Notes: generated from the letters alone by a model not told the origin. Numbered from the stretch's first letter, positions 2,183 through 23,199 are shown. The stretch is 23,199 nt of DNA from a virus (IMGVR_UViG_3300032011_000139:1-23199); one strand, 5' to 3'. Translations and numbers: made by a program.

Positions 2183-2212
2183 GGATATGCCGGAAAATAA
2201 CTTAAAGAATAG

Positions 2213-2241
2213 TTGCCTTTCCGAGTTATTCTTCGTATATT
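2213..2241 (+). promoter_or_regulatory. Promoter A, sigma70-type, TTCCGA-spacer family
   Basis: The -35 is TTGCCT (2213-2218), the spacer is exactly 17 bases and begins TTCCGA, and the -10 is TATATT (2236-2241). The element matches promoter B (3536-3564) almost base for base, including the TATTCTTC that ends the spacer. It lies 21 bases upstream of the ATG at 2263. Conservation between two unrelated downstream genes supports a functional promoter, probably read by the host's housekeeping polymerase early in infection. Confidence 0.75.
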
Positions 2242-2262
2242 TAATGTATAAAAGGTTATAGA

Positions 2263-2463
2263 ATGAAAGAGTTCTTCAATAAAGGCTTGTGGTATCTTAT
2301 TATTACCTCAGTACTTATAGTAGGTACGGCCTTACTTATGTTATTAATTGATCTATCAGTACATGGGCTATATATGGTATTAAAGTATCCGCTACATACG
2401 ATCATCATCTCAGGTGGTCTTCTTATAGTAGTAATAATATATCATCTATATAAGGAAAAGTAA
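2263..2463 (+). CDS. Small two-helix membrane protein, 66 aa
   Basis: Two hydrophobic stretches, residues 9-31 (LWYLIITSVLIVGTALL...) and 44-61 (LHTIIISGGLLIVVIIY), are separated by a short polar turn and capped by a basic HLYKEK tail, typical of a small inner-membrane protein. No family is recognised; holin, superinfection exclusion and host-membrane remodelling are all possible. It has its own sigma70-type promoter directly upstream, which suggests early expression and argues against a late lysis role. The ATG is preceded by AAAAGGTTATAGA. Confidence 0.7.
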   Translation: MKEFFNKGLWYLIITSVLIVGTALLMLLIDLSVHGLYMVLKYPLHTIIISGGLLIVVIIYHLYKEK

Positions 2464-2717
2464 ATGCCTACTATGGTCACTCTTATGGCCGTCTGACATC
2501 ACACTGATATAACACTGACAGTATAGTTCCCTTAGGTGTACGTTACCATATTGCTCTGCCCATACCTATCTGTATATTTCTTACGATTTTTAGTGATATA
2601 GGTTATATATATTTATATATTTATATATAGTATTATTACTTAACCGTACTTATAGAGGTACCTATTGTCGTTCTTATTGTGCTATCTATCGTAGTATTGA
2701 GGACTCTGATGTTAAAC
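2464..2717. other. Convergent intergenic region, no gene seen
   Basis: These 254 bases lie between the ends of two converging genes (plus strand to 2463, minus strand from 2718). No ORF of useful length is visible on either strand. The region holds three CTGA-centred repeats at 11-base spacing (2491-2522), a long TATATATTTATATATTT tract (about 2603-2629) and the 8-bp palindrome AGGTACCT (2656-2663). No clear hairpin-plus-T terminator is seen. Confidence 0.5.
2491..2522. repeat. Three CTGA direct repeats at 11-base period
   Basis: CTGA occurs at 2493, 2504 and 2515, so the copies sit on the same face of the helix. The units read roughly gtCTGACATCA, caCTGATATAA and caCTGACAGTA. Such one-turn phasing resembles small operators or iterons, but three short units could arise by chance and no binding protein is known. 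Confidence 0.35.
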
Positions 2718-2873
2718 TTAGAAATATCTCCAAGTTAACTTAATTATTCCAAGGTAAATATTAACCTCAGTCCAATCTTCGTCATCGAAAGCTCCATCTC
2801 TATCTCCTTTTGGGAAGTAAGTGGCTCCTATTAGGAATCCATCTCCTAATCCAGTAATTCTAAAATCATCCAT
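2718..2873 (-). CDS. Hypothetical 51-aa protein, minus strand
   Basis: Read on the minus strand, ATG at 2873 opens a 52-codon ORF ending at TAA 2718. The start is preceded by AATAAAAAATAAAGGTT, the same A-rich GGTT leader as the plus-strand genes at 464 and 3587, which is the main reason to believe it. The product begins MDDFRITGLGDGFLIGATYF, is acidic in the middle (DRDGAFDDEDW) and ends KLTWRYF. It looks like a compact beta-rich soluble protein. It is the only minus-strand gene supported in the window and is divergent from the gene at 2993. Function is unknown. Confidence 0.6.
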   Translation of the reverse strand: MDDFRITGLGDGFLIGATYFPKGDRDGAFDDEDWTEVNIYLGIIKLTWRYF

Positions 2874-2992
2874 AACCTTTATTTTTTATTATTACTATAA
2901 TATAAGAACTTTTACAATGGGATCCTACTAAATACGGGGATTTTTTTTCCAAAAATTTTTTTATATATGGGGTTTTCTTCTATTTATAGGAA
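2874..2992. promoter_or_regulatory. Divergent AT-rich promoter region
   Basis: This 119-base gap separates divergent genes and should hold both their promoters. On the minus strand, TTCTTATATTA (about 2896-2906) matches the spacer end and -10 of promoter B and lies about 25-30 bases before the minus-strand ATG; a good -35 is not obvious. On the plus strand, the sequence before 2993 contains two T-rich runs (2941-2961) and TATTTATAGGAA next to the ATG. The exact promoters are not resolved. Confidence 0.4.
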
Positions 2993-3436
2993 ATGAAACC
3001 TATAGATCCACAATCTTTGTTTAATCTCTTCGAAGTAGGCGATGAAGAAGTCTATGAAGAGCATAATGTAACAGACGTACTACAAAATCCATACGTTTTA
3101 ATGAGTATGGTCGTAAGAGGTGTGGAGAATTACAAGCTTCTTGACAAGTTATACCTAAGAAACCATAAAAAACACTACCAAGACGTTAGAGAAGACGTAA
3201 AGTTCAAGTATTTTTCTAAATTATTCAGTTATTTAAGTAGAATTGACGTAAATAAGTTCGAAACTAAGTATACTATCACGGAAAACTACGATATAGTCAA
3301 GGTAAACGTTCTACTAAACGAGTTATTGTCCTATTTTGAGGGTATTGAGTATTATGAGAGGTGTGCAGTAATAAAAAAGTACATAGATCTCATATATGAC
3401 GATCCTAAAGTTATACTACCGGATAATTTAATATAA
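2993..3436 (+). CDS. Hypothetical phage protein, 147 aa
   Basis: The family is not recognised with confidence. The protein is soluble, probably mostly helical and mixed-charge, with an acidic N-terminus (EVGDEEVYEEHN) and regular heptad-like hydrophobic spacing from residue 40 to the end. There is no signal peptide and no metal-binding cluster. It starts just after TATTTATAGGAA; the AGGA four bases before the ATG is the closest thing to a Shine-Dalgarno sequence nearby. It is followed after 6 bases by a tiny membrane ORF, with which it may be co-transcribed. Confidence 0.7.
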   Translation: MKPIDPQSLFNLFEVGDEEVYEEHNVTDVLQNPYVLMSMVVRGVENYKLLDKLYLRNHKKHYQDVREDVKFKYFSKLFSYLSRIDVNKFETKYTITENYDIVKVNVLLNELLSYFEGIEYYERCAVIKKYIDLIYDDPKVILPDNLI

Positions 3437-3442
3437 AACTCT

Positions 3443-3523
3443 ATGATTTTAGTAAAAGTAGTGGGGATATTGGCCATTGGTTGGTTCATTATGAACAGGT
3501 TGTTCAAATATCTTGATAAATAA
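3443..3523 (+). CDS. Tiny single-pass membrane peptide, 26 aa
   Basis: The ORF encodes MILVKVVGILAIGWFIMNR followed by a short basic LFKYLDK tail: one transmembrane helix with positive cytoplasmic residues, close to the minimum for a membrane peptide. It starts 6 bases after the upstream stop and ends just before promoter B (3536). The position between a gene and a promoter, and the clean TM-plus-basic-tail pattern, support it; no homologue is recognised. Confidence 0.5.
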   Translation: MILVKVVGILAIGWFIMNRLFKYLDK

Positions 3524-3535
3524 AAGGGGAAACAG

Positions 3536-3564
3536 TTGCTTTTCCGATATATTCTTCTTATATT
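3536..3564 (+). promoter_or_regulatory. Promoter B, sigma70-type, TTCCGA-spacer family
   Basis: TTGCTT (-35, 3536-3541), a 17-base spacer beginning TTCCGA and ending TATTCTTCT, then TATATT (-10, 3559-3564). It lies 22 bases before the ATG at 3587. It differs from promoter A at only a few positions across the core. The TTG of the -35 could be read as the start of a longer ORF, but the match to promoter A shows that these bases are promoter, not coding. Confidence 0.75.
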
Positions 3565-3586
3565 AAGGTATATTAAAAAAACGGTT

Positions 3587-3895
3587 ATGACATATCAAGA
3601 AAAAATTAAAGAATCTAAGAAAATTCACAAATCTATTACTTCATTAAGAGTAAAAGAAGAAATCAAAGTTACCTATGGAGTAGATAGAAATGGTAAACCA
3701 GCAGAGTATACCATAAGAGCTTATAAAGGGTTTAGAGAAGAAAGTAATTATGCTATAAGTGAGTCTAATAGCTTTATGGGGAGATCAATGAATGTAGATA
3801 AGGTGACTAATACTATGCTTAAGTGTTATTCATTCGATTTGATGAATCAAAGAACTACTTATAACTTCCCTTTGTACTTATTAAAGGTAGTATAA
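3587..3895 (+). CDS. Hypothetical 102-aa protein
   Basis: I start this gene at ATG 3587 (MTYQEKIKESKK) instead of the in-frame TTG at 3536. The intervening bases are promoter B, and the ATG carries the local AAAAAAACGGTT leader. The product is basic at the N-terminus (EKIKESKKIHKSITSLRVKEEIK), then mixed, with a VDRNGKPAEYTIRAYKGFREE stretch that looks like beta strands and a tail rich in N, T and Y. There is no membrane segment or known motif. Its own promoter suggests early expression. Function is unknown; a small nucleic-acid- or host-protein-binding factor is possible. Confidence 0.7.
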   Translation: MTYQEKIKESKKIHKSITSLRVKEEIKVTYGVDRNGKPAEYTIRAYKGFREESNYAISESNSFMGRSMNVDKVTNTMLKCYSFDLMNQRTTYNFPLYLLKVV

Positions 3896-3903
3896 CCAAA
3901 GTC

Positions 3904-4170
3904 ATGATATTACCTCAGCACATACAGTCCCAGATCTACGATTTTATATCCCATAGATTCAGAGACATTACTATAGATAGATACTCTATGGACACATCAG
4001 ACTGGAATCTATCCGTTACCGGTAAGTATTCATTTATCGTTAATATAAGAAAAGGATACCCTATAGGCGTTATGGTGTCGGAGATAGCTAATCAAAAACA
4101 TACTGAGGAAGCTTTCTATAATAGAGAAGCGTTAGAAATTGAATTAAATGATAATATAAAATATGATTAA
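3904..4170 (+). CDS. Hypothetical 88-aa protein
   Basis: A small soluble protein with a helical N-terminus (LPQHIQSQIYDFISHRF) followed by alternating strands (ITIDRYSMDTSDWNLSVTGKYSFIVNIRKGYPIGVMVSE) and an acidic tail. The helix followed by strands resembles small host-takeover proteins of phages, but no family is recognised. It overlaps the following lipoprotein gene by 8 bases, so the two are probably co-translated from the transcript begun at promoter B. Confidence 0.65.
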   Translation: MILPQHIQSQIYDFISHRFRDITIDRYSMDTSDWNLSVTGKYSFIVNIRKGYPIGVMVSEIANQKHTEEAFYNREALEIELNDNIKYD

Positions 4171-4789
4171 ACTACTAGATAAAATTTCGTGGCAACTTTG
4201 CGCGTTTTGCGCGGCGAGCGCGGTGCTGTTCTTTAGCTGTACTGTCGATGACCTCACTTCTTCCCCTTGTATCGATGGAGATTGTGATGCAGAGATGGTA
4301 TTACCGGGTTATTTAGATGAAAATGGTTATCGTCATATCGATTTAGACTTTACCGGAGAGTATTTACCTTGGTTTCAAGTAGATGTCTTTGCAGATAAGG
4401 TACTACCTCAATATGAATATAACGGAGTACAGCCGGTAGAAGCTAGATTTGATAGCGATACACATTGGACTATTGGAGATTCTTTAATGGTAACCGTAAA
4501 TAACTACAATCCTTTCCAAGGACCTTATGATTATAACGGTAATTTACTTCCAAATTCCTCTTATGATATCATTCTAAATCAGTTTGCAGGTATAAAAGTT
4601 AATATAGTTCAGGGTACTAGTATTTATTTTTCCGATGATCACGATCGTTTAAGGTCAAAAAGGATAGTTGGACCAATTCCTCCAATGGCTCAAAACGATA
4701 CTATTACACTTTATATGGAGGTATATTGGGAGGGAGTTGGTAATTCCGTAATAAAAGACCATTATTTTGAAAAATTTATTGTGGAATAG
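4163..4789 (+). CDS. Predicted phage-encoded lipoprotein, 208 aa
   Basis: The N-terminus is a signal peptide: basic start (MIKLLDK), hydrophobic core (LCAFCAASAVLFF) and lipobox ending FFSC, with Cys26 as lipid anchor. Residues after the cysteine are T-V-D-D, resembling the acidic lipoprotein export signal that sends Bacteroidetes lipoproteins to the cell surface. The mature part (about 180 residues) is acidic and beta-rich with many Y, N and D, and has no recognised catalytic motif. Phage lipoproteins often block adsorption or DNA entry of related phages, so superinfection exclusion is a reasonable inference. A short GC-rich burst (about 4198-4228) encodes the signal core, unlike its AT-rich surroundings. 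The gene overlaps the upstream ORF. Confidence 0.75.
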   Translation: MIKLLDKISWQLCAFCAASAVLFFSCTVDDLTSSPCIDGDCDAEMVLPGYLDENGYRHIDLDFTGEYLPWFQVDVFADKVLPQYEYNGVQPVEARFDSDTHWTIGDSLMVTVNNYNPFQGPYDYNGNLLPNSSYDIILNQFAGIKVNIVQGTSIYFSDDHDRLRSKRIVGPIPPMAQNDTITLYMEVYWEGVGNSVIKDHYFEKFIVE

Positions 4790-4818
4790 TTGATCTTCCG
4801 AAAAAAAATCATTATCTT
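4790..4818 (+). promoter_or_regulatory. Promoter C, sigma70-type, divergent member of TTCCGA-spacer family
   Basis: TTGATC (-35, 4790-4795), exactly 17 bases beginning TTCCGA, then TATCTT (-10, 4813-4818). The first 14 bases (AGTTGATCTTCCGA) closely match promoters A and B. The rest of the spacer is A-rich and differs. It lies just after the lipoprotein stop and about 90 bases upstream of the HD-domain gene, so the leader would be long. Confidence 0.6.
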
Positions 4819-4839
4819 AATTATATATTAAGAATTAAA

Positions 4840-4909: not shown

Positions 4910-5644
4910 ATGACATTAAAGGCGGAGAAAATCCATTCGAATTACGATAAACATCTTAAAATTATAGATACTTACTTAGGTGATCGTAAAGAATCATGTA
5001 AAAAGCTTATAGAACACTTGGGCGAAGCCTATATTATGGCACCTGCTAGCGGTAAATCATGGCATCATAATGCTTTTGCCGGTGGTTATATCGATCACGT
5101 TAACAGGGTAGTTGAGTTTAGTATTAAACAGATGAGACTTTTCAAAGAGATGGGTGGTACTATAGATTTTACAGAAGAAGAATTGGTATTTGCTGCTTTA
5201 TTCCATGACCTTGGTAAGATAGGTGATGGAGAAAAAGAAAACTATATACCTCAGACCGATAAATGGAGGCAGGATAAGTTACATGAAATGTATACTTACA
5301 ATCCAGAGCTTGGATTTATGTTGATACCAGATAGGTCACTGTTTATATTACAAAAATTTGGTATTAAAGTATCTAAAAACGAGTTCTTAGGTATCAGATT
5401 ACACGATGGTGTGTTCGATAAAGCTAACGAAGCGTACTTCTTTAGTAACGTACCGTCATCCAGAATGAAAACCAACATAGTATTCGTACTTCATACGGCT
5501 GATTTCTTAGCCTCTAAGGTAGAGTATGATAAATGGCTTTCAGATGGTGGTGATACCTCACCGAAAACAAAAAAAACTAAGTCCTCTACGGGTAAACGGG
5601 TGAATTCCTCTCAAGGACTTAAAAACATGTTAAATAAACTATAA
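4910..5644 (+). CDS. HD-domain phosphohydrolase
   Basis: The metal-binding pattern of the HD superfamily is visible: H63 in GGYIDHVNRV, the H99-D100 doublet in ALFHDLGKIG, a later H165-D166 in RLHDGVFD, and D198 in VLHTADFLASK. The enzyme should hydrolyse phosphate esters in nucleotides or nucleic acid; the layout recalls YhaM-like 3'-5' exoribonucleases and HD proteins of T4-like marine phages. The N-terminal 50 residues are helical. The last 30 are a Lys/Thr/Ser-rich flexible tail (KTKKTKSSTGKR) that could contact nucleic acid. The stop overlaps the next start (TAATG). The substrate cannot be told from sequence. Confidence 0.85.
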   Translation: MTLKAEKIHSNYDKHLKIIDTYLGDRKESCKKLIEHLGEAYIMAPASGKSWHHNAFAGGYIDHVNRVVEFSIKQMRLFKEMGGTIDFTEEELVFAALFHDLGKIGDGEKENYIPQTDKWRQDKLHEMYTYNPELGFMLIPDRSLFILQKFGIKVSKNEFLGIRLHDGVFDKANEAYFFSNVPSSRMKTNIVFVLHTADFLASKVEYDKWLSDGGDTSPKTKKTKSSTGKRVNSSQGLKNMLNKL

Positions 5645-5955
5645 TGAATATAACTTTATACATAATAATCGGTTTTTTAGTTGCCATTTCGGGAACTTTA
5701 GTGTATCTTATTAGAAACCTTATGGTGAAAGTAGAAAAATACGAAGATGTTACAATAGATCAAGCACAGTATCTTCAGAGTATTTCTAATATCATAGGGG
5801 AATCTAACAAACACTTACAGAATCTCGACGAAAAGGGGGTCTTTCAATCAGATGATGAAGTTGGTGAATTTTTTAACCAAATGAAAGCAGTACAAGACGA
5901 ATTGAATAGGTACATGCTCCCAGATAACTATGGCAAGGAAGAGAGCGAAAGCTAA
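5644..5955 (+). CDS. Membrane-anchored small protein, 103 aa
   Basis: One N-terminal transmembrane segment (residues 3-25) is followed by an 80-residue cytoplasmic region that looks helical and acidic (KVEKYEDVTIDQAQYLQS..., DEKGVFQSDDEVGEFFNQMK). The shape is a membrane-tethered coiled coil. I recall similar proteins next to late sigma genes in marine T4-like phages, without a known function. Its start overlaps the HD gene's stop, and its last 26 bases overlap the sigma factor gene, so the three should be made together. Confidence 0.7.
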   Translation: MNITLYIIIGFLVAISGTLVYLIRNLMVKVEKYEDVTIDQAQYLQSISNIIGESNKHLQNLDEKGVFQSDDEVGEFFNQMKAVQDELNRYMLPDNYGKEESES

Positions 5956-6634
5956 TTACTTTACAAGAGAGACAGAAGAGTACATTGTAAGGTTTAATGA
6001 ATCGGAAGATCAAGACTACAGAAGTAAGATCTTTACAGATCACATTTATTACCCATTTTATAAACTAGCAGAAAACATAATTCATACATTTAAGTTCTAC
6101 TACACAGATGTAGATAAAATAGAAGACTTAAAGCATGAAATAGTCTCAGTATTATACGAAGAGAAGATAATGAAGTTTGATCCTACTAATGGAGCAAAAG
6201 CTTACTCTTATTTTGGTACTATTGTTAAAAGGTGGCTGATAAACTACAACAATAAGAACTATAAAAAATTAAAACAGATAGGTCAGTTCGCTGATATGGA
6301 GGACTCCTATAAACAGGCGTATGCTGTTGACCACGCTTATGGTAAAACCTTAAGTGACTTTATAGATATATGGGTTGATGAAACCTACCTCATAATAGAC
6401 GACTTATTTATTAAAGAACAAGATAAAAAAATAGCAGATGCTGTTTTAACTATTTTTAAAACTAGACACGATTTAGATATTTTTAAGAAAAAGGCTCTTT
6501 ATATATACATTAGAGAAATGACAGATTGCGATACACCTAACCTAACTAAAGTAATAAACGTACTAAAAGTTAAGTTTAAAGAAAAGTACCAAAAAAGCTA
6601 TGATTTAGGATTATTAACTAATAAGTCTCAATAA
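5930..6634 (+). CDS. 55: Late transcription sigma factor, T4 gp55-like
   Basis: The product (234 aa) carries a sigma region 2-like core at residues 83-107: FDPTNGAKAYSYFGTIV followed by KRWLINYN. This matches the gp55 family's F-D-x..A-x-x-Y-F-x-T-I-x-x-R/N signature used to bind core polymerase and melt the -10. The basic N-terminus (MARKRAK) and lysine-rich C-terminal part (FKKKALY, KVKFKEKYQKS) fit DNA and clamp contact. T4 gp55 is shorter (185 aa). It would redirect host RNA polymerase to late promoters, and it sits directly before the tail-gene run. It overlaps the upstream membrane-protein gene. Partner genes gp33 and gp45 are not in the window. Confidence 0.8.
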   Translation: MARKRAKANYFTRETEEYIVRFNESEDQDYRSKIFTDHIYYPFYKLAENIIHTFKFYYTDVDKIEDLKHEIVSVLYEEKIMKFDPTNGAKAYSYFGTIVKRWLINYNNKNYKKLKQIGQFADMEDSYKQAYAVDHAYGKTLSDFIDIWVDETYLIIDDLFIKEQDKKIADAVLTIFKTRHDLDIFKKKALYIYIREMTDCDTPNLTKVINVLKVKFKEKYQKSYDLGLLTNKSQ

Positions 6635-6637
6635 GTC

Positions 6638-6652
6638 TATTTATATATAAAA
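6638..6652 (+). promoter_or_regulatory. Possible late promoter, AT-rich box
   Basis: TATTTATATATAAAA lies 4-18 bases upstream of the ATG at 6657, in the only gap between the sigma factor gene and the tail operon. A near copy occurs before 17403. If it is a promoter, the leader would be very short. It may instead be an A/T-rich translation leader, as used by Bacteroidetes. Confidence 0.35.
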
Positions 6653-6656
6653 CATT

Positions 6657-7025
6657 ATGAGTTTAGATAAAGAAATATTTAAGGGCAAAACCTTATCTGA
6701 CCTCTTCGGTGAAATATACGATAACTCAAAAGAGACTAAATCACAAGTAAAAGGGCTTATAGCTGAACTAAAACCTTTAATTGAGAATATAGGCGACGCT
6801 ACTTTACTAGTACCGATGATAAAGGAGTACATGGAGATAGGTGTTAAAAATGATGAACACCTCATCAAACTAGCTACTGTAATACAGAGGTTAGAAATAG
6901 CAGCTTCTAAGGGAGAGACGGGGGAATTCGACCTCTCCGAACTACAGGATTTATTAGAAGAGTCTGAACAAGCACAAGAAGAAGTTAAAGATATAGGAAC
7001 CACAGAAGAAGGTAACGAAGAATAA
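6657..7025 (+). CDS. Conserved-looking acidic phage protein, 122 aa
   Basis: A helical, acidic protein. Residues 1-80 contain IFKGKTLSDLFGEIYDNS and VPMIKEYMEIGVKNDEHLIKLA, a pattern I associate with unannotated genes near the baseplate cluster in marine T4-like phages. Residues 95-122 are a low-complexity acidic tail (ELQDLLEESEQAQEEVK). It is the first gene after the late sigma factor and is separated from the spike gene by two bases, so it is likely a late virion or assembly protein. An assembly chaperone is possible; no direct evidence. Confidence 0.6.
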   Translation: MSLDKEIFKGKTLSDLFGEIYDNSKETKSQVKGLIAELKPLIENIGDATLLVPMIKEYMEIGVKNDEHLIKLATVIQRLEIAASKGETGEFDLSELQDLLEESEQAQEEVKDIGTTEEGNEE

Positions 7026-17358: not shown

Positions 17359-17376
17359 TAAAAGTTTAAATTAATA

Positions 17377-17389
17377 TATTTATATAAAA
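17377..17389 (+). promoter_or_regulatory. Possible late promoter, AT-rich box
   Basis: TATTTATATAAAA lies in the 44-base gap before the gene at 17403, one of the few non-coding gaps in the tail run. It nearly repeats the box before 6657 (TATTTATATATAAAA). It would allow separate late expression of the distal tail genes. The evidence is repetition and position only. Confidence 0.35.
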
Positions 17390-17402: not shown

Positions 17403-18062
17403 ATGGGATACTTAAATAATGGCGTTGTAACCGTTGACGCAATATTAACGAAGAAAGGAAGAGAACTACTAGCAAGAGGCGATGGTTCTTTTAAGATTAC
17501 TCAATTTGCTTTATCCGATGATGAAATAGATTATACACTATATAATCCTTCTCACCCATCAGGATCTCAGTATTATGGGCAGGCTATAGAAAATATGCCT
17601 CTATTAGAAGCTTTTCCTGATGAAACTAAATCATTAAAATATAAGCTAGCAACTCTTCCTAGAGGTACTTCAAAACTACCATTACTAGAAACTGGATATG
17701 CTAGTATTGTACTTAAACAAGGAGGTTCATTAGCAATAACTCCTCAAACATTAAACTACCTAGGAGCTACTTCTACTTTTGAAAGTGGGGGATATACTGC
17801 TACTATAGCTGATGTGAGGGTACTTTCAAGCTTAACAGGTGTTGGAATAAACACAGAAGAAGCTGAGACATTAAATTCAACACAAACGATTGGAACTAAT
17901 GTATCTAAGACTGTAATAGGAACTTCTATTAATTTAAGAGCCACTACAGTGAATACTTTATTTGGAACCAAAACTAAACTTCAGACTACTATTCAAATTA
18001 TAGGTAGAGATTCAGGAGCAAGAGTTACTATTCCTATTACAATTAACAAAGTAAATAACTAA
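17403..18062 (+). CDS. Conserved marine-phage structural protein, 219 aa
   Basis: The N-terminal half has a strongly patterned sequence: LTKKGRELLARGDGSFKIT, FALSDDEIDYTLYNPSHP and YYGQAIENMPLLEAFPDE (residues 16-74). I recall this pattern from unannotated structural genes in uncultured marine myoviruses. The conserved acidic/aromatic core suggests a defined fold. The C-terminal half is Thr/Ser-rich beta sequence ending in ARVTIPITINKVNN. It follows a possible late promoter and precedes two related structural genes. It could be a fibre-attachment or baseplate rim protein; the exact role is unknown. Confidence 0.65.
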   Translation: MGYLNNGVVTVDAILTKKGRELLARGDGSFKITQFALSDDEIDYTLYNPSHPSGSQYYGQAIENMPLLEAFPDETKSLKYKLATLPRGTSKLPLLETGYASIVLKQGGSLAITPQTLNYLGATSTFESGGYTATIADVRVLSSLTGVGINTEEAETLNSTQTIGTNVSKTVIGTSINLRATTVNTLFGTKTKLQTTIQIIGRDSGARVTIPITINKVNN

Positions 18063-20566: not shown

Positions 20567-21415
20567 ATGGCCGTTCGTACTGATGGAGCTTTCAACATGT
20601 TTTCAGCTAGTGCTGAAGACACTCATTCTATAGAGTTTAATCTATCGAAATCGTTAGCTACCATTATGAACTCAGTTACAGGTAGTTCATTTAACGAATT
20701 TATATCTGCTTCTTTATATCCCCACTACGACCCCTCATATGCCGGCAACGTTCAAGACCCTGTTATTAGTTATGTATCAGCTTCATTACAGTGGAGAAAC
20801 TATCCACTAACTCCTACTCAAACACTAACACCTACTCCTACAAAAACCCCTACATCTACTCCTACCGGAACTCCTGCAGTAACTCCTACGAATACTGCAA
20901 CAATAACACCAACACCTACCCCTACTGTGTCTCCACCAGTTACACCTACTAACACAGCTACATCTACTCCTACTAGAACTGCTGATGTAACCCCTACTCA
21001 AACTCCTACTAATACGCCGACTATATCTGATACTCCTACGAATACCCCTACGAATACCCCTACCCAGTCTCCAACCGTCACACCGACAATATCAGATACA
21101 GCAACCCCTACACCTACTCCTACCGTATCAGGAGGACAAGAAAGATGGGAGGTAAATTTATGTAGTGCAGGTAGTCCAGGAGGAACTATACACTATTTAT
21201 CTAAGACACAGTATTGTGATGGAAGTAGTTTAGCTATAATACCAGATGGTAGTTTTAGTAATGGTGATTACGTACAGTTTAGATTAAATATTGCTGGTTG
21301 CGGAGGTGCCACATATTGCGGGCAGATATCAACAGTTGCTAATGGAAGCATAACAGGATTAATAAGCACATTAACTAAACCGTCAGATTGTACTGCTGCA
21401 ATGTGTACCCAATAA
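20567..21415 (+). CDS. TP-linker fibre/adhesin with six-Cys C-terminal domain, 282 aa
   Basis: Three modules. Residues 1-80 are an anchor domain ([27 protein letters not shown]) shared with the next gene. Residues 81-188 are a Thr/Pro repeat linker ([20 protein letters not shown]) that should be extended and may be O-glycosylated. Residues 189-282 form a beta domain with six cysteines, with NGDYVQF, ATYCGQI and TGLIS motifs. The same domain ends the 1004-aa baseplate protein. The design suggests a baseplate- or fibre-attached adhesin with the Cys domain as binding head, but no target is known. Start at 20567 because it aligns with the paralogue's N-terminus. Confidence 0.7.
20807..21130 (+). 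repeat. Thr/Pro-coding repeat tract in the 20567 gene
   Basis: About 108 codons of short ACN-CCN repeats with N, S, V, I and A interruptions. Synonymous codons are mixed (ACT, ACA, ACC, ACG; CCT, CCA, CCC, CCG), so repetition is stronger in protein than in DNA. Confidence 0.85.
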
Positions 21416-21421
21416 AAAAAT

Positions 21422-23199
21422 ATGAGTTTTACAGTACCTACAGGAAGTAATTTTAATATGTTTACAGCTAGTTTAGCTGATACTCATTCTGTACAGTATA
21501 ATGTATCAAGATCTCTTGAAGGAATAATATCAGCATTTTCTGCTTCCTCTTTTAATGATTTTATATCGGCTTCTAAAACTGATGATTTTGGTGATGGAAC
21601 TTTATCTGGGTCTTTATCTGCATCTTTAGTAATATCTTCTTCATTTCAATTTAAAGGCTTTCCTGTAACCGCTACCCCTACAATGACAGCAACAGTAACA
21701 CCGTCTGTGACTGCTGGTGCTTCTGCTACACCAACCCCTACTATATCAAACACACCTACACCTACTAGTACCGTAACCCCTACCGTGACAGCTCCTGCTA
21801 CTGCTACTCCTACGAATACTCCGACTAATACTGTAACTCCAACAACTACTGCAACAGTAACCCCTACTATATCTTTAACTGCAACAGTAACCCCTACGAA
21901 CACCCCTACAAATACTGTTACTCCTACTCCTACAGATCCACTAGATAGTACTAATGTAAGAATATCTGTAAGTGCTTCTTCTGCTTGTAACTCAGGAGAA
22001 GGAACATCAGCTGTAATAACTATATTTGATCAACCTAGTTTACAGAACGGAGATGTACTTTATTCTTCTTCTAATGCTTCTTCAGTAATAACATTTAGCC
22101 ATTTACAAACTAAACTATCTACCGGAGCCAATACTATATTTATGGCTTCAGCCAGCGTTGTGTACACACTAAACGTTACTGGATCTCCTGTAACTAACTC
22201 TACTTATGTTTTATCTACAGGAACTTGCCCTACCCCGACTCCTACCCCAACCATAACTCCTACCAAGACACCAACTAATACTCCTACGAGCACAGTAACC
22301 CCTACCAAAACTTCTACTGCAACTCCATCAGCAACTGCTACTAATACTGCTACCCCGACAGTCACTCCATCTCCTTCTAATCCTTTAGATGCTTCTAACT
22401 ATAGATTAGCAACTAGTGCCTCAGCAGCTTGTCATACCGGAGAAGGTCCTTCAGTTGTTATAGCTATATATGATGCCGATCAACCATTAGAAACTGGTGA
22501 ACTATTGTATGAGAATTCTGGAGGTACAGATAAATGGACATTTGCAGAATTACAAGCTCTTGTTACATCATCAGCAAATACTTTATTTGTACAATCAGGA
22601 AGTATAGTCTATACAGTAAAGCATAATGAAGCAGAATCAGCAGCATTTGTATCAGGATCAGGTGCATGCCCTACCCCTACACCAACTCCAACAGCTAGCC
22701 CTACAGCAACAGCTACTCCAACACCAACTGTTACCGCTACAGTAACTCCAACAAACACTCCTACTAACACTGTAACATCAACAGTCACACCAACCAACAC
22801 CCCTACCAATACTGTTACCGCAACAGTAACTCCTACTATATCTTTAACAACGACAATTACCCCTACCGGTACCCCAACCAATACGCCTACCAACACCGTA
22901 ACTCCTTCTGAGACTCCCACTAACACTGTAACACCGACTGTTACACCTACAATATCTGATACTCCTACTGCAACACCAACCGTTACACCAACTGAAACAG
23001 CTACATCAACTGTAACTCCAACCAATACCCCTACTAATACAGTTACACCTTCTGAGACTCCAACCCTTACTCCAACCAAATCTGATACAGCAACTCCTAC
23101 TCCTACAACAACTGCTACAGTAACTCCTACTATATCTGATACACCGACTAATACTCCTACAGCAACTATTACGCCAACAATATCTGATACGCCAACTGA
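21422..23199 (+). CDS. Large TP-linker adhesin with repeated 97-aa domains, 3' end outside window
   Basis: I read ATG 21422 through at least 592 codons without a stop; the last two bases begin another codon, so the gene continues. Residues 1-80 are the anchor domain shared with the upstream gene (FNMFTASLADTHSVQYN, SSFNDFISAS, QFKGFP). Linker TP1 spans 81-171. Domain D1 (172-269) and domain D2 (320-416) are homologous, each with two cysteines, a C-x-x-GEG motif and a C-P-T-P-T-P-T exit. TP2 (270-319) lies between them, and TP3 (417-592+) contains [13 protein letters not shown] and TPTISDTPT units. It looks like a beads-on-string adhesin. The antisense ORFs here are artefacts of the repeat. 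Confidence 0.75.
   Translation, partial: MSFTVPTGSNFNMFTASLADTHSVQYNVSRSLEGIISAFSASSFNDFISASKTDDFGDGTLSGSLSASLVISSSFQFKGFPVTATPTMTATVTPSVTAGASATPTPTISNTPTPTSTVTPTVTAPATATPTNTPTNTVTPTTTATVTPTISLTATVTPTNTPTNTVTPTPTDPLDSTNVRISVSASSACNSGEGTSAVITIFDQPSLQNGDVLYSSSNASSVITFSHLQTKLSTGANTIFMASASVVYTLNVTGSPVTNSTYVLSTGTCPTPTPTPTITPTKTPTNTPTSTVTPTKTSTATPSATATNTATPTVTPSPSNPLDASNYRLATSASAACHTGEGPSVVIAIYDADQPLETGELLYENSGGTDKWTFAELQALVTSSANTLFVQSGSIVYTVKHNEAESAAFVSGSGACPTPTPTPTASPTATATPTPTVTATVTPTNTPTNTVTSTVTPTNTPTNTVTATVTPTISLTTTITPTGTPTNTPTNTVTPSETPTNTVTPTVTPTISDTPTATPTVTPTETATSTVTPTNTPTNTVTPSETPTLTPTKSDTATPTPTTTATVTPTISDTPTNTPTATITPTISDTPT
21662..21937 (+). repeat. Thr/Pro-coding repeat tract TP1
   Basis: About 90 codons between the anchor domain and domain D1. 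It includes two [12 protein letters not shown] units and a TVTPTISLTATVTP segment that recurs in variant form in TP3. Codon choice varies from copy to copy. Confidence 0.85.
22229..22378 (+). repeat. Thr/Pro-coding repeat tract TP2
   Basis: About 50 codons joining D1 to D2, starting right after the last cysteine of D1 (CPTPTPTPTITPTKTPTNTPT) and ending in VTPSPS before NPLD of D2. Confidence 0.85.
22670..23199 (+). repeat. Thr/Pro-coding repeat tract TP3, runs off window
   Basis: At least 176 codons after the last cysteine of D2. Units such as [13 protein letters not shown] (twice in a row near the start, again later), TPSETPT and TPTISDTPT recur with substitutions, suggesting growth by duplication followed by drift. 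Confidence 0.85.

Follow-up and report, generated by a model that had tools for sequence, protein, structure and literature searches.

Bacteroidota housekeeping promoters have the consensus TTTG / TAnnTTTG, with elements at -33 and -7 (PMC2483708). The early promoters of phage T4 carry a consensus that extends beyond the sigma70 elements, its extra part unexplained (PMC2988021), and the PeSL cassettes of T4-type phages couple an early promoter with a terminator stem-loop (PMC4503421). Our literature searches returned no description of a promoter set in T4-like phages that infect Bacteroidota.

We analyzed a 23,199-nt stretch of viral DNA (IMGVR_UViG_3300032011_000139:1-23199), here called the window. 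Among isolates, the nearest to it is immuto, a Flavobacterium phage of 160 kb (identity 56% for the baseplate and 60% for the HD protein), and its clade is a large, mostly uncultured T4-like group, probably with marine Bacteroidota hosts; we infer the window phage's own host from this isolated relative. Contig G007 shares the window's first 5,501 bases with 4 differences, and therefore the two together represent about 42 kb of practically one phage. As relatives, we used eight related contigs, which are fragments, with G004 covered to 40 kb. Promoter positions are numbered by setting the last T of the -10 element as -7. Near the start of the window, a tRNA-like gene (301-445) has a complete cloverleaf only without about 67 nt in its anticodon arm; ARAGORN reports a tRNA-Leu(tag) there when introns are allowed and nothing when they are disallowed. 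The insert is conserved in G007, G001, G008 and G002 (100-86% identity), indicating that it is not a recent accident.

The pattern TTGNNNTTCCGAN11TATNTT occurs exactly at 2213-2241, 3536-3564 and 4790-4818, always on the + strand; the window holds no further exact copy, and none appeared in 100 dinucleotide shuffles. When up to 3 mismatches were allowed, there were 12 matches, compared to 3.9 expected. The match extends upstream to AGTTG in all three copies, and the genes behind them start at 2263, 3587 and 4910 on the coding strand. The preliminary description's three promoter copies are thus borne out, each exact and each before a gene. The features are as follows.

2211-2241, + strand: promoter copy 1, with AGTTG at 2211-2215, TTCCGA at 2219-2224 and the -10 element TATATT at 2236-2241; predicted start near 2248, ATG at 2263
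2263-2463, + strand: small gene behind copy 1, 66 aa, membrane protein-like, no family match
3534-3564, + strand: promoter copy 2, with AGTTG at 3534-3538, TTCCGA at 3542-3547 and the -10 element TATATT at 3559-3564; predicted start near 3571, ATG at 3587
3587-3895, + strand: gene behind copy 2, 102 aa, no assigned function
4788-4818, + strand: promoter copy 3, with AGTTG at 4788-4792, TTCCGA at 4796-4801 and the -10 element TATCTT at 4813-4818
4910-5644, + strand: HD-domain phosphohydrolase gene behind copy 3 (Pfam HD, 2.5e-5; PHROG 5889, 6e-15)
5679-5709, + strand: doubtful fourth match, AGTTGCCATTTCGG...TATCTT, within the gene at 5644-5955, with the sigma-like gene about 220 nt downstream

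All three copies recur in related genomes. The copy 1 site is found again at 21103 of G007, and an orthologue of its 66-aa gene (MKEFFNKGLW...) lies behind the same promoter in G001 and G002. Counterparts of copy 2 precede orthologous genes in G001 (46731), G002 (85812) and G008 (53071); a TTG listed as the start of the 102-aa gene, at 3536, falls within the copy 2 promoter and is unlikely to be the true start. Copy 3 begins at the preceding gene's stop codon, has an AU-rich leader of about 85 nt and is found, at exact spacing, in each of the 69 relatives that we examined. Its -10 element continues into a palindrome, CTTAATTATATATTAAG (4813-4835), that is kept in many close relatives and could be an operator or a leader structure. 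Conservation of the match at 5679-5709 may reflect coding alone.

The sites belong to a much larger set. Across the window and the eight contigs, the coding strand carries the frame AGTTG-N20-TAT[AC]TT 115 times and the opposite strand never, a count that includes orthologous sites of near relatives, so that the sites are not all independent. The spacing is sharply defined, as the same search with N19 or N21 returned only 3 and 1 forward and 0 and 2 reverse matches, respectively. An ATG usually follows 5-33 nt downstream, and an ATG-started reading frame begins within 40 nt of 75% of the family sites and 90% of the immuto sites, compared to about 20-22% of random positions. The window and G007 (42 kb) contain 11 sites, all on the coding strand, one of which (window 5679) lies within a gene. 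The preliminary description named a lack of further genomic copies as grounds against a promoter family; many copies exist in G007 and the relatives, so that objection falls away, and the 115-to-0 strand count and the position of the sites before genes support the family.

Immuto and the third lineage, G012, share this frame (29 forward and 2 reverse sites, and 29 and 0, respectively) with different spacers, indicating that the frame is general to the clade while the spacer element is specific to the window's lineage. Many of the sites precede small genes without assigned function. The genes for ssb, Hsp20, groES and thioredoxin also have AGTTG promoters, and consequently the set is not purely early. 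Beyond the -35 and -10 elements, G(-25), T(-28), TTC at -16 to -14 and an A-rich stretch at -42 to -38 are enriched. An RNA element was rejected, as a Rfam search returned no match and the window lineage has no hairpin excess.

We found that TTCCGA, which the preliminary description took as the conserved spacer sequence, is just one variant of an element whose constrained part is T(-28)..[TC]G(-25)[AC], typically TTCTGA in the window's lineage. In the window and G007, positions -28 to -24 read TCTGA (three times), CCTGA, TCTGG, TTCGA, TCCGA (three times) and TTAAA (once). With the in-gene match excluded, the box [TC][TC][TC]G[AG] is present in 9 of the other 10 sites, the remaining one having TTAAA. 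Across the window and the eight contigs, G occupies -25 in 92 of the 115 sites, even though the search left that base free, which upholds the earlier claim that the spacer is conserved beyond what the -35 and -10 elements need. Copy 3 has 25 non-redundant orthologues, of which 23 keep G(-25) and 23 keep T(-28), while -27 and -29 vary freely. The persistence of these two bases as their neighbors change points to selection on particular bases rather than to recent copying.

The box is almost always accompanied by both other elements. When the box was fixed as the query, AGTTG was found in 50 of the 67 forward matches and in none of the reverse ones; when AGTTG and the box were both fixed, 52 of 53 occurrences had TATATT, TATCTT or a variant differing by one base at the expected distance downstream. 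The full composite of AGTTG, box and -10 element occurs in 81 viral stretches, whereas 257 Gb of bacterial genomes gave only two exact matches. The surroundings of these two match no related-phage protein, so they look like chance, and one reads as within coding sequence. The box is therefore a phage feature, and we rejected a host promoter with the same spacer element. The box is also absent from G012 and from immuto, which infects Flavobacterium, indicating that it is not a need of every host polymerase. A division of the sites into early ones that have the box and middle ones that lack it is only suggestive: the groES and Hsp20 promoters are without the box, but the ssb promoter has G(-25).

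The preliminary description likened the -35 and -10 elements to the classic sigma70 form, but only TTG (G at -33) and TAT[AC]TT are fixed. The second half of the -35 element varies and the -10 element is TATATT or TATCTT, not TATAAT, which rules out classic E. coli boxes. The layout is closer to the Bacteroidota sigmaA promoter, with a TTG ending at -33, TAnnTT at -12 to -7 and N20 between AGTTG and the -10 element. The match is imperfect, with three differences: the phage sites read GTTG (within AGTTG) rather than TTTG; their TAnnTT is invariant and followed by TA or AA rather than TG (TTAA/TTTA compared to TTTG); and their composite with the spacer element is practically absent from bacterial genomes. 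Immuto's TATATTTAGG is nearer to TAnnTTTG than the -10 element of the window lineage. A multisubunit RNA polymerase gene was searched for in the phages and none was found, with positive controls, and we rejected that source of transcription; a search for single-subunit polymerases was likewise negative, but so was its control, and the outcome says little.

Together, these data support an explanation in which the three elements are probably genome-wide pre-replicative (early or delayed-early) promoters that would be read by the host RNA polymerase and that carry a lineage-specific extra element. The host enzyme with its main sigma would read the -33 and -7 elements, the phage promoters would be optimized past host needs as the T4 early promoters are, and the -28/-24 element would add strength or lineage-specific control via a further contact. 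We favor host-read promoters with a phage-specific added element because of the near-Bacteroidota layout, the failure to detect a multisubunit polymerase, MotA or AsiA, the phage-only box and the parallel with T4 early promoters. Gene position, together with the undetected multisubunit polymerase, lends indirect support to use by the unmodified host enzyme when infection begins. As in T4 (PMC2988021), a T4-like phage has repeated promoters before non-structural genes, probably read by the host polymerase, with a consensus that extends past the host elements and an A-rich stretch upstream of the -35 element. Unlike in T4, the host-type elements come close to the Bacteroidota -33/-7 form, the added conservation makes up a defined element at -28 to -24, and TTC stands at -16 to -14 with no TGn extended -10.

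The spacer may be contacted by the host polymerase or by a phage protein; the preliminary description proposed an activator, a repressor or a phage-modified sigma as the extra factor. A phage transcription factor unrelated to MotA/AsiA, or a phage-modified RNA polymerase, could read -28 to -24 together with the host -33/-7 elements, a possibility that we hold tentatively. A housekeeping sigma usually tolerates looser spacing than the very rigid spacing of the phage sites. The phage-only distribution fits a phage factor, while the rigid geometry is just as compatible with a single RNA polymerase complex that reads all of the elements.

A MotA/AsiA-like arrangement, in which a phage activator on AGTTGnnnTTCTGA (-37 to -24, centered at -30, strictly about -30.5) recruits the host polymerase to middle-type promoters, appears unlikely. 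The position of the box resembles that of T4 middle promoters, where the MotA box is centered at -30: it ends 11 bp before the -10 element (12 +/- 1 in T4), and AGTTG and CTGA are separated by one helical turn. The lineage-specific spacer element and the essentially phage-only composite would also suit such an activator, and many of the genes behind the sites are small and unknown, which does not. However, the sequence differs from that of T4, the TTG at -33 is retained rather than replaced, immuto has the -33/-7 frame without the box, and the spacing is fixed where T4 boxes tolerate +/-1 bp. Moreover, neither the MotA DNA-binding domain (PF09158) nor AsiA (PF09010) was found in five relatives, three of them fragments, while T4 was positive, which speaks against both proteins as the readers.

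It is improbable that the spacer is only a copying trace, left by promoter cassettes multiplied by recombination in the manner of PeSL and read by no protein. Each lineage does have its own spacer theme (TTCTGA in the window group, ATTAAAAGAG in G012), and immuto has features that recall the cassettes (PMC4503421). Most of its 29 frame sites fall at 60-77 kb, where small unknown genes follow one another, each with its own promoter, and some of these promoters overlap a terminator-like hairpin. These sites carry TATATTTAGGTAT after the spacer and no TTCTGA, and the annotated start is about 60 nt after the first A of the frame. Strong terminator-like hairpins occur in about 29% of immuto spacers, compared to 12% of random positions, and overlap the -35 element; examples over the -35 element and spacer are at 33320, 37293, 64497, 67960 and 70241. 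Because the hairpins overlap promoters, the same stretch may serve both as the end of one gene and as the beginning of the following one. The window-group spacers, in contrast, have no hairpin excess (mean z -0.1, 7% strong hairpins), a difference from PeSL cassettes, and G(-25) and T(-28) persist in divergent orthologues of one promoter while adjacent bases change.

Equally poor is the case for a repressor operator that overlaps a host-type promoter and shuts early genes off. The element does sit between the -35 and -10 elements, so that a protein bound to it would obstruct RNA polymerase, and its conservation is confined to the lineage, but repression would not require a register as strict as the one fixed to both elements in 52 of 53 cases, and no repressor candidate was identified.

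The structural genes are preceded by a different motif, found clade-wide in immuto and the relatives: [AC]TATTTATA, which on the coding strand reads as the T4 late element TATAAATA in reverse complement. The three window elements differ from the T4 late (gp55) promoter, which has a TATAAATA-type -10 and no -35, in having a -35-type box together with TATATT or TATCTT. In immuto, the structural half of the genome holds 17 of 27 late motifs but 0 of 29 AGTTG sites (Fisher 9e-8). The corresponding features of the window are listed below.

2980-2988, + strand: late-type motif CTATTTATA, before the gene at 2993-3436
5930-6634, + strand: candidate gp55-like late sigma, with sigma region 2 and a C-terminal helical domain
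6637-6645, + strand: late-type motif CTATTTATA, before the gene at 6657-7025, at the start of the structural block
17376-17384, + strand: late-type motif ATATTTATA, before the gene at 17403-18062

A possible small gene on the minus strand (2718-2873) has the AAAGGTTATG start context of the forward genes, and the structural block ends in two proteins with long TPTxTPT-type threonine/proline repeats (20850-23199).

The product of 5930-6634 is probably a late sigma factor of the gp55 type, on weak but concordant evidence. Pfam Sigma70_r2 matches 18 of 32 members of its family (best 0.011), a profile that T4 gp55 itself matches with an E-value of only 0.087, and 14 of 32 members match the PHROG 'late sigma'. 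Its profile match to gp55 is collinear (E 0.0058, probability 6%), and its top fold matches are mostly sigma factors, none significant. The protein is annotated as hypothetical in immuto. We infer a pairing with the late motif, such that structural genes would use [AC]TATTTATA instead of the AGTTG promoters, probably with this sigma. That such a phage-encoded sigma directly recognizes the AGTTG composite is very doubtful: it is encoded nearby, its C-terminal helical domain could read the -35 element and the rigid three-element spacing suits a single protein, but it is 60-94% identical in immuto and relatives, which lack the box, a gp55-like sigma is better paired with the distinct late motif of the structural genes, and no sigma region 4 match exceeded the cut-off in four genomes.

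The G at -25 is a single base kept across divergent relatives, outside the usual sigma contacts, and offers a sharp, testable prediction. If a phage factor or a modified polymerase does read the element together with the host -33/-7 elements, a large uncultured phage group would be taking over the Bacteroidota polymerase by a new means. The two predicted classes, AGTTG-N20-TATATT and [AC]TATTTATA, can be searched for in metagenomic contigs, where they would mark the early and late genes of this abundant uncultured group.
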